Of a DNA stretch of 21,978 nt, positions 18,881 through 21,978 are shown piece after piece; the first letter of the stretch is position 1, and every line of letters begins with the position of its first letter. Both the position numbers and the translations under genes were made by a program. The notes under the pieces are model-generated. The model saw only the letters and a program-made list of their open reading frames with translations. It made no database searches and was not told where the DNA came from. The DNA lies in assembly GCA_016190205.1 (NCBI GenBank), contig JACPQZ010000010.1, positions 1-21,978 of the forward strand, read 5' to 3'. The DNA comes from Candidatus Omnitrophota bacterium. GTDB taxonomy: Bacteria > Omnitrophota > JACPQZ01.

Positions 18881-19626
18881 AGAAACTCTCCGTCGTCATA
18901 CCCATTTATAACGAAGCTGCCACCATTACCTTGATTCTCCAAAAGATCGGGGCGCTGGATCTGCCGGTTGTGAAGGAAGTGATAGCCGTCAATGACGGGT
19001 CCACCGACGATACGCAGGAGGTGCTGGAACGTCACCGTAACCTGGTCGATCAGCTGGTGGTCATTCCCAAGAACCGTGGCAAGGGCTGGGCGGTGCGAAT
19101 GGGACTTGGACGGGCAACGGGCGACTACGCGATTATTCAGGATGCCGACCTAGAGCTGGATCCCGGCGAATATTCCGCGCTCCTCGCGCCGCTGCTCAAG
19201 GGGAAGGCCCAGGTCGTCTACGGTTCCCGCTTTCTTAAGGCCAGCCGTTCTATTCCCTGGCAGATTCGCGTGGCCAATCGTGTTTTGACATTCCTGACCA
19301 ACCTCTTGTATCGAAGCCGGCTGACGGACATGGAGACTGCTTACAAGCTTTTTGATCGATCTATTTTCGAGAGGATCAAATTGGACAGCACGGGTTTTGA
19401 TTTCGAGCCCGAGATCACGGCCAAGCTGCTTCGTCTAGGGTACCGCATCCATGAAGTGCCTGTAAGCTATTTGCCGAGAAGCCGTGCCAGCGGTAAGAAG
19501 ATTGGCTGGAAGGATGGGATTGAAGCAGTGGAGACACTCATTCGCTGCCGCTTCAGTCCGCGTGGGCTGTTTTCTGTATCTGGGGATATTGAGCGAGTAC
19601 GTCCATGTGCGGTTTCGCAGGAATAA
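18877..19626 (+). CDS. GT2 family, polyprenyl-phosphate sugar synthase (Dpm1-like)
   Basis: This 249-residue GT-A enzyme starts KLSVVIPIYNEAATI and carries VNDGSTDDT (38-46) and the metal-binding QDADLELDP (88-96). These, with TDMETAYKLF and an F-D-F-E-PEI stretch, are typical of dolichol/undecaprenyl-phosphate mannose or glucose synthases. No membrane segments are evident at the C-terminus, so it is the soluble or peripheral type. It begins with ATGA overlap on the GT39-like gene, which fits a donor-acceptor pair: this enzyme charges the lipid and the GT-C enzyme uses it. Starts further upstream in frame lie inside the previous gene and are not needed. Confidence 0.82.
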   Translation: MKKLSVVIPIYNEAATITLILQKIGALDLPVVKEVIAVNDGSTDDTQEVLERHRNLVDQLVVIPKNRGKGWAVRMGLGRATGDYAIIQDADLELDPGEYSALLAPLLKGKAQVVYGSRFLKASRSIPWQIRVANRVLTFLTNLLYRSRLTDMETAYKLFDRSIFERIKLDSTGFDFEPEITAKLLRLGYRIHEVPVSYLPRSRASGKKIGWKDGIEAVETLIRCRFSPRGLFSVSGDIERVRPCAVSQE

Positions 19627-21527
19627 TCCACTGGGATTCCCAGCCTGTATTGCGATGTGATTTGGAATCTATCCTGGCCCGGTTAAGGCACCGCGGTCCG
19701 GATGAGGCCTTTGCCGAAGTCCCTGCCGAAGGGGTGGGGCTGGCCCATGTCCGTCTGCGCGTCCTGGATCTTTCTCCCTTGGCCCGACAGCCCATGTCGA
19801 ACGACAGCCGGACCCTGTGGCTCGTTTACAATGGGGAGGTGTACAATTTCGCCCGACTGCGCGCAGAGCTTCAAACCCTCGGCCATCAGTTTAAGAGCCA
19901 GTCGGATACCGAGGTCGTTCTCAAGGCGTATGAAGCCTGGGGACACGAGGCGTTTTCGCGCCTGGATGGGATGTTTGCCGTGGCGCTCTGGGATGCCCGC
20001 AAGAGGGAGTTGACGCTGGCCCGGGATCGCGTCGGAAAGAAGCCTCTCTTTTACTGGACGGACGGCCGCTGTCTTGTTTTCGGCTCCGAGATCAAGGCCC
20101 TTTTCTGTCATCACCACGTCCCGAGAGAAGTGGACGAGGAGGTGCTGGGATTTCTTTCGGTCTTCGGCCACCCCCCGGGCGAGCGCACGGCCTTCCGCGG
20201 CATCCGTCAGGTTCCTCCTGCAGCATCTTTAAGTTTTTCTTCGGACGCCTTCTGCCAGCCGCGGACCCAGACGTACTGGCGGCTCCAGTTAGAAGGAGGG
20301 AATCGCGCGGACAGGGAAAAGGTGGTGCGGGAGCTCCGGTGGCTTGTGGAGGACGCTGTTCGGAAGCGGATGCGGGCCGACGTCCCTGTGGGGGCGTTTT
20401 TGAGCGGGGGGGTGGACTCCAGCACCGTGGTCGGCCTGATGAGGCGCTTTAATCCGGAAGGCCGTCTTAAAACTTTCAGCGTGGGTTTCAAGGATAGTCC
20501 GGATTACAATGAGCTTCCGTTTGCAGAAGCCGTGGCCAAACGGTTTGGGACGGAGCATACCTCATACCTCATTTCTGCACAGCCTTTTGATATGATCGAG
20601 CGCCTGGTGTGGCATCACGATCAGCCCTTTGGGGATTCGTCCGCCGTCCCCCTCTACCTTTTATCGCAGCGGGCGAGGGAAGAGGTCACCGTGGTCCTCA
20701 CGGGAGACGGCGGGGACGAGCTCTTCGGAGGCTATCTGCGCTTTCCGGCCGCCCTTTGGGCGGAAAAACTCCCGCGGGGTCTCATGGGCACGTTGAGCCG
20801 TCTCCTTCAAGGCGTTTCGGGTCTCAAGGATCGCTCGCTTTTACGACGCACCCAGCGTTTTTTTGAAGCCGCCTCACTGCCATTTTTAGAGCGTTATCTA
20901 AAACTCGCGGGGCATTTCGGATCGCAAATCCCTTTGTGGGATGCATCCCGGGCGGCTGTAGAGAGAACCGCGATGGAATGGATGAAATGCCGGTGGGAGG
21001 AATCTCGCGCCTGGTCGCCCCTGTCACGGCTCTTGTACTTCAATTTTAAGGAGTATCTTCCCAACGACCTCATGGTCAAGTCGGACCGGTGCACCATGGC
21101 CCACGGGCTGGAGGCGCGTTCACCTTTTTTGGACACGCGCTTGATCGAATATGTCGGTCTATTGCCCGATCCATTTAAAATATCGGGATGGAAAACCAAG
21201 GTCATTTTAAAAGAAGCCTTCCGGGATCTCTTGCCGCGTACCATCCGCCGGCGCTCCAAGACGGGATTCGGCGTACCCTTAGGATCTTGGTTCCGGGGCC
21301 CATGGCGGGAGCCTTTGCTGGACCTCTTGACGCCTTCTGCCCGCATCCTTCGGATGGGGGTCCGGTGGGGGGCCCTTGAGCAACTCATCCAAGCGCATTT
21401 GGCGAAGAGATGCGATGCAGGTCACGCGCTTTGGTTTCTCTTGACATTCGAGATGTGGTTGCGCGAGCAGGAGCGTCCCGTCACTCGCGCAAATCACCAA
21501 CCCGTAGGTGCGAGTCATGCAGTCTAG
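19605..21527 (+). CDS. asnB: Glutamine-hydrolysing asparagine synthetase homologue (glycan amidotransferase?)
   Basis: This 640-residue protein has both domains of AsnB-type enzymes. The N-terminal class II glutaminase begins MCGFAG with nucleophile C2 and has RHRGPDE (28-34). The synthetase domain has the ATP-binding LSGGVDSS (266-273) and GDGGDELFGG near 366-375. C2 fixes the start at 19605, giving a 22-nt overlap with the GT2 gene and only a weak ribosome site. AsnB homologues in O-antigen and capsule loci amidate uronic or other acidic sugars, which is the likelier role here, although free asparagine synthesis cannot be excluded. The stop TAG (21525-21527) lies inside the left end of the palindromic element. 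Confidence 0.85.
   Translation: MCGFAGIIHWDSQPVLRCDLESILARLRHRGPDEAFAEVPAEGVGLAHVRLRVLDLSPLARQPMSNDSRTLWLVYNGEVYNFARLRAELQTLGHQFKSQSDTEVVLKAYEAWGHEAFSRLDGMFAVALWDARKRELTLARDRVGKKPLFYWTDGRCLVFGSEIKALFCHHHVPREVDEEVLGFLSVFGHPPGERTAFRGIRQVPPAASLSFSSDAFCQPRTQTYWRLQLEGGNRADREKVVRELRWLVEDAVRKRMRADVPVGAFLSGGVDSSTVVGLMRRFNPEGRLKTFSVGFKDSPDYNELPFAEAVAKRFGTEHTSYLISAQPFDMIERLVWHHDQPFGDSSAVPLYLLSQRAREEVTVVLTGDGGDELFGGYLRFPAALWAEKLPRGLMGTLSRLLQGVSGLKDRSLLRRTQRFFEAASLPFLERYLKLAGHFGSQIPLWDASRAAVERTAMEWMKCRWEESRAWSPLSRLLYFNFKEYLPNDLMVKSDRCTMAHGLEARSPFLDTRLIEYVGLLPDPFKISGWKTKVILKEAFRDLLPRTIRRRSKTGFGVPLGSWFRGPWREPLLDLLTPSARILRMGVRWGALEQLIQAHLAKRCDAGHALWFLLTFEMWLREQERPVTRANHQPVGASHAV
21504..21510 (+). promoter_or_regulatory. 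Ribosome site for the last glycosyltransferase
   Basis: GTAGGTG ends 6 nt before the ATG at 21517, inside asnB. It supports translation starting upstream of the palindromic element and reading through it. Confidence 0.5.
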
Positions 21528-21978
21528 AAGCTATCCCGATACCTCACTTCGTAGCGAAATCGCTGATTTTGAAGCCGAGCCGCAGCGACGTGAGGCGCCG
21601 CGCACCCGCAGTGGTGCGCAAGCCGAGCGGCGCAAAGGCGCAGGCCAAAAGCAGCGATTGCAGCAGAAGGGGGGTTTCGGGATAGCTTCTAGCCCTGTCC
21701 CCATCCTTCGGATCATCGCCCGGCTGAATATAGGGGGTCCTGCGATCCAGGCGATTACCTTAACCCAGCGGCTGGGGCCCCCTCGGTACGAGTCCGTTTT
21801 AGTGGCAGGCGAGACTGCTCGCGGGGAAGGGGATATGAGTTATCTGGCAGACGGGAGCCCGGTTAACCTTATCAAGCTGCGCTCTCTCGGCCGCTCTATG
21901 AACCCATGGCGCGATCTAAAGGCCTGGTTAGGGATCCTGGGTATTCTCATGCGGGCTCGCCCCCGCCTGGTGCATACG
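21517..21978 (+). CDS. GT4-family glycosyltransferase, 3'-truncated by window, with in-frame palindromic insertion
   Basis: Reading from the ATG at 21517 gives 154 codons with no stop to the right edge. From residue 60 the protein is a typical GT4 N-terminus: PVPILRIIARLNIGGPAIQA, then YESVLVAGET and later RPRLVHT. Residues 4-58 are encoded by the palindromic element and are polar, rich in R, E, Q, K and A, unlike a GT4 start. Removing the element's net 165 nt leaves MQSSPVPILRII, a normal-looking start. The ATG overlaps the asnB stop and has GTAGGTG upstream. The next in-frame ATG (21835) is inside the domain; a TTG at 21658 lacks a ribosome site. The gene is therefore either translated through the element or started at a poor codon within it. 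Confidence 0.75.
   Translation, partial: MQSRSYPDTSLRSEIADFEAEPQRREAPRTRSGAQAERRKGAGQKQRLQQKGGFGIASSPVPILRIIARLNIGGPAIQAITLTQRLGPPRYESVLVAGETARGEGDMSYLADGSPVNLIKLRSLGRSMNPWRDLKAWLGILGILMRARPRLVHT
21524..21692. mobile_element. MITE-like palindromic element inserted in a coding sequence
   Basis: The ends are inverted repeats: 21524-21543 (CTAGAAGCTATCCCGATACC) pairs with 21673-21692 at 19 of 20 positions. An inner pair, 21558-21571 and 21646-21659, matches at 13 of 14. A central hairpin has stems GCGCACC (21600-21606) and GGTGCGC (21613-21619) around a 6-nt loop. All three pairs are nearly concentric, so the whole element can fold as one long imperfect hairpin. CTAG (or TCTAG) at both edges may be a target duplication; the net insertion is 165 nt. 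It encodes no transposase and resembles a non-autonomous palindromic repeat. Confidence 0.8.
21600..21619. repeat. Central hairpin of the palindromic element
   Basis: GCGCACC (21600-21606) and GGTGCGC (21613-21619) form a perfect 7-bp stem with a CGCAGT loop, centred within about 2 nt of the element's midpoint. Confidence 0.75.

Follow-up and report, generated by a model that had tools for sequence, protein, structure and literature searches.

In Rickettsia and Wolbachia, palindromic elements of ~105–150 bp, with terminal inverted repeats, a long hairpin and an open frame, lie in frame within conserved protein genes (PMC2229807, PMC10969869). In Rickettsia, at least 19 protein genes are known to contain such an element (RPE) (PMC2229807, PMC10969869). 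Correia/NEMIS, ERIC and RUP are MITEs of 100–200 bp with 5'-TA-3' termini that form hairpins, and some of their open frames are fused to genes (PMC2229807, Table 1). In Coxiella, some copies of QMITE1 and QMITE2 provide the gene before them (ubiB, CBU_2020) with its stop codon, or lengthen a gene in frame (PMC5896051). From these QMITEs, MITE-supplied stop codons and extensions are already known singly.

The stretch of DNA analysed here (the window, 21,978 nt) belongs to the 1.65-Mb assembly of a groundwater bacterium, probably of the phylum Omnitrophota (G000; 76 contigs, 92.8% complete). Near its end, a palindromic mobile element lies inside the overlap of two genes and truncates neither. 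The upstream gene (19605–21527, plus strand) encodes a 640-aa asnB-type amidotransferase that matches PF00733 and TIGR03108 (E 1.2e-154, up to residue 621 of 640). Its stop codon TAG (21525–21527) consists of the first TA of the element and the G that follows. The downstream gene (21517–21978, plus strand) encodes a GT4 glycosyltransferase. It starts at an ATG at 21517, 6 nt after a putative Shine-Dalgarno-like AGGTG (21506–21510, plus strand) that the insertion leaves untouched. The contig ends within this gene, at 21978, and the window thus holds only the first 154 codons.

The element is delimited by its repeats, its hairpin and an empty allele. As first reported in the preliminary description, two copies of TCTAG (21523–21527 and 21688–21692) are spaced exactly 165 nt apart. 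That description had drawn the element from CTAG to CTAG; the unit is better drawn from TA to TA, at 21525–21691, as 165 nt plus one TA. The left TA (21525–21526) is at the same time the TA of the asnB stop codon, and the right TA occupies 21690–21691. Inside them lie perfectly matching 13-bp terminal inverted repeats, GAAGCTATCCCGA on the left (21527–21539, plus strand) and its reverse complement, TCGGGATAGCTTC, on the right (21677–21689, minus strand). Drawn wider, as CTAGAAGCTATCCCGA (21524–21539) and TCGGGATAGCTTCTAG (21677–21692), the repeats are still perfect. Folding of the 172-nt RNA gave one hairpin over the whole length, at -100.7 kcal/mol; of 200 shuffled sequences, none was equally stable (z -9.9). 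As DNA the element likewise forms a single full-length hairpin. Searches of Rfam and of plasmid and phage records with the element, and of viral contigs with its pattern, returned no match. The element is short and multi-copy, carries terminal inverted repeats and encodes no transposase; it is MITE-like, that is, non-autonomous, flanked by TA, fully palindromic and placed at a YTAR-like target.

When the portion of the glycosyltransferase beyond the element was used as a query, it matched a second contig of the same assembly, C43 (G000:C43:23-307, 95% protein identity), which starts with the same gene and an empty site, GTGCAGTC-TA-GCCC. The first bases of this contig are GGCATGAGTCGTGCAGTCTAGCCCTGTCCCC. 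It has one TA, within GTCTAGCCC, where the window has TA-163 nt-TA; the target-site duplication, TA or the CTAG that contains it, is therefore single in C43 and double in the window. The empty allele is shorter than the filled one by exactly 165 nt, with the frame downstream preserved. From TCTAG onward, C43 and the sequence after the element in the window are identical at 282 of 291 nt. The C43 glycosyltransferase is intact (L098:11-1228), a 405-aa GT4 protein with PF13439 and PF13692, in which the TIGR03088 match begins at residue 8. Excision of one unit had been predicted to restore a plausible GT4 start, and C43 carries this join naturally (V/M-QSSPVPILRII), in a gene that begins GTG-CAG-TCT, with GTG in place of the ATG of the window. 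The asnB stop codon had been expected to persist with or without the insertion, and TAG is indeed seen in both alleles.

C43 could also represent a paralogous asnB–glycosyltransferase junction on the same chromosome, in which case the insertion would stand and the strain polymorphism would not. The contig begins only 18 nt upstream of the TA, its last 16 bases before TCTAG carry four mismatches to the window, and the downstream parts differ at nine of 291 positions, all of which would suit a paralog. However, the start of C43, when translated in the asnB frame, looks like the end of an asnB (GMSRAV-stop, GASHAV-stop in the window), yet no second asnB was found in the 92.8% complete source assembly, where the locus has one other match only. 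In addition, C43 is fully identical to the window contig, C76, over the last 72 nt of the latter, as expected of a strain bubble in a metagenome assembly. Because of this identity and the lack of a second asnB, C43 is more likely a strain variant, and we regard paralogy as improbable. The same empty site would result if slippage between the TCTAG repeats had deleted the element precisely in the C43 strain.

Under an insertion in one strain, the glycosyltransferase acquires codons 4–58 from the element. In agreement with the preliminary description, the 165 nt amount to 55 codons added in frame, and the glycosyltransferase frame is free of stop codons throughout the element. The added 55 residues follow residue 3, end in GGFGIAS and precede the GT4 fold, whose first residue in the empty allele is residue 8; the stretch is basic and probably disordered. 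The intact start codon, ribosome-binding site and open frame suggest that it is translated, and tryptic peptides such as SEIADFEAEPQR and GGFGIASSPVPILR would mark translation through the element. Glycosyltransferase relatives from other Omnitrophota lack the added segment. In 27 of 28, the distance from the start to the NIGG motif is 10–34 residues; the empty allele has 15 residues here and the filled allele 70. The 28th relative is a long fused frame. The repeat nature of the element, the empty site, the exact 165-nt difference, the open frame and the absence of the segment from relatives were observed directly. We conclude with high confidence that, in one strain, a MITE-like element entered the asnB stop codon at its TA, rebuilding that stop and extending the glycosyltransferase in frame.

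A search of the source genome with the element revealed five copies of full length, a further copy that is truncated by a contig end, and a half-element. Identity to the window copy is 94% on C70, 90% on C73, 97–100% in two parts on C54, 99% on C49 (the truncated copy) and 75% on C23. The C54 copy (G000:C54:24408-24646; L042:1909-2147) is a 237-nt unit with 72 nt extra, lies in the opposite orientation and sits on the stop codon of uvrA, at the start of a gene for a TPR protein. A frame of 896 codons is open through this unit into the TPR protein, adding ~80 residues before its signal-peptide-like segment, SKIFCKVFFGAALVLACAAPFSPARA. The TPR gene probably carries a second in-frame insertion, of the kind that the preliminary description had proposed to look for. 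The half-element (G000:C43:28333-28358; L040:1833-1858) reads GGFGIAS in frame into a membrane protein. This protein, of 625 codons and with a weak PTPS_related match, has no ATG, GTG or TTG before its membrane part; upstream there is a TGA and then only ATA or ATT. The right end of the C49 copy (G000:C49:34826-34927; L043:3827-3928) is in frame with the next gene. That gene is small and coiled-coil-like, and no ATG, GTG or TTG occurs between the element and a Met ~45 residues in.

In this genome, each of the five full-length copies has a length divisible by three (165, 237, 165, 165 and 195 nt). Seven of their ten orientation readings are open in the phase that places the T of TA at codon position 3 (phase 2), and none is open in the other phases. 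Both the window copy and the C54 copy use phase 2. Only 5 of 108 readings from other genomes were both a multiple of three and open. A unit length divisible by three was considered as a rule for the whole family and rejected, as it holds for only 13 of 23 copies. The two in-frame cases do not prove selection for coding, because the copies between genes (C70, C73 and C23) also have open phase-2 readings and the five copies share ancestry.

The hairpin stem begins 8–9 nt into the glycosyltransferase coding region, and a structure of about -100 kcal/mol at +8/+9 may block or lower translation of the gene. The mobile insertion could accordingly have inactivated or strongly lowered the glycosyltransferase, with the hairpin stopping initiation or serving as a cleavage site for RNase III, and with an open frame that merely follows from the sequence of the family and has no function; we hold this to be quite possible, though we do not favor it. 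The hairpin starts within the ribosome footprint, most family copies are outside genes, and the phase-2 openness of the intergenic copies means that openness here is no proof of selection. Against silencing, the start codon, the Shine-Dalgarno sequence and the frame are all intact, ribosomes arriving from asnB would reach the base of the stem, and the frame at the uvrA/TPR junction offers a second in-frame case. In the in-frame extension that we prefer, ribosomes translating asnB would terminate inside the stem base and could open the stem for re-initiation, and the effect on the glycosyltransferase enzyme would be near-neutral.

A covariance model built from seven copies was used to search 384 Omnitrophota genomes, nine of which contained relatives of the element; two Elusimicrobia MAGs contained them as well. 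Across seven members from the two phyla, 21 of 60 consensus pairs were changed on both sides. Such compensatory changes along the hairpin would be expected of a structured RNA, and the segment might be a conserved regulatory RNA, or else an original part of the protein, with no insertion at all. We consider this extremely unlikely, since the arms of a palindromic transposon co-vary too and the segment is multi-copy at unrelated loci, has an empty site, is absent from the relatives and has no Rfam match. The multiple copies and the relatives that lack the segment equally speak against a single-copy feature conserved in all orthologues, which the preliminary description had named as the finding that would overturn an insertion. 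The mobile element so identified has ends that vary among genomes (GAAGCTATCCC, GAGCCTATCC, GAAGTCATCCC, GAGCTCAGCCC and GGAGCCTGTCC), almost all beginning right after TA or one base later. Nearly every copy ends in TA or a one-base variant, and Y precedes the left TA in 19 of 23 copies.

One of the Elusimicrobia MAGs (G385; L106–L123) holds ~24 copies of the same core hairpin, forming a modular palindrome family, in which this core is enclosed by three or more distinct sets of terminal arms, TAGTGTAGTGTCCCGTAAATAACTGGACATTTGG and TAGGAGCCTGTCCGACATAAG among them. Two other genomes, G041 and G384 (L155, L156, L157 and L160), carry mini-palindromes, AGAGCCTATCCGGCTCT, together with short palindromes that have the same ends and another core; these probably arose by internal deletion or represent additional types of MITE. 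The solo ends in these two genomes were considered as IS ends and rejected, as they proved to be half-elements or remnants of deletions such as AGAGCCTATCCGGCTCT.

Most of the 23 surveyed copies lie between genes or on stop codons, and insertion inside genes is not the main habit. In 12 of the 23, the end TA is the TA of a TAA or TAG stop codon (ORFs of at least 100 codons), compared to 4.5% of nearby TA sites. With called genes, 11 of 23 copies are on a stop codon versus 8.8% of tolerated TA sites, or versus 18.8% when only YTAR sites are counted (P ~0.001); the binomial tests take copies as independent, and copies from the same genome are related, though at different loci. By our own reading, the base after the far-end TA is A or G in nearly all stop-sited copies, so that a stop codon is present at the empty site as well and the gene was not shortened. 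The element end, TA+G or TA+A, rebuilds the stop codon.

For the mechanism, we envisage that a transposase acting in trans recognizes the terminal repeats and inserts the element at YTAR-like TA sites. Landing on a stop codon would do no harm, since the element brings its own replacement for the stop; at asnB, its end would rebuild it as TA+G, giving TAG. A downstream gene that already overlaps the stop codon in the open phase would be extended rather than broken. The glycosyltransferase frame would continue because the unit equals 55 codons and is open in the phase used, with the T of TA at codon position 3. Elements of the IS5 family (IS427-type) or of the IS630 type duplicate TA at a YTAR-like target. 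The element resembles them in its TA/YTAR target; searches with DDE_Tnp_1, DUF4096 and DDE_3 returned transposases, none of them with matching ends, in the 11 element-carrying genomes, which are incomplete MAGs. Tentatively, we propose that a core hairpin shared by Omnitrophota and Elusimicrobia under interchangeable ends prefers TAA/TAG stop codons, which its own ends restore, and is tuned in this lineage, by lengths in multiples of three and one phase open in both orientations, to enter stop/start overlaps harmlessly. A limited literature search found no description of a stop-codon bias, a single open phase in both orientations or exchangeable arms.

Compared to the Coxiella QMITEs, which are likewise short MITEs, the element differs in length and direct repeats, and its extension is N-terminal to the downstream gene whereas theirs are C-terminal. 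It shares terminal inverted repeats, TA at both ends and a hairpin with Correia/NEMIS, ERIC and RUP. These occur in other hosts, while the element has, in its source genome, a single open phase common to both orientations, and its sites are over-represented at stop codons. The likeness to the Rickettsia elements raised in the preliminary description holds by analogy only. Judged from descriptions in reviews, the two are alike in the palindrome, the hairpin, the open frame and the in-frame insertion (in the GT4 gene and probably in the C54 TPR gene), and the element appears to work like an RPE. However, it belongs to another phylum and lies mostly at gene boundaries, its in-frame fusions amount to two at gene starts and one or two uncertain ones, and we do not claim RPE membership. 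The best-known protein-coding palindromes are those of Rickettsia and Wolbachia; the element represents a family apart from these, in phyla that are uncultured. Because one assembly holds both a filled and an empty site, survival of the gene after insertion becomes directly testable, and the stop-codon habit offers a simple rule for small mobile DNA living in dense operons.
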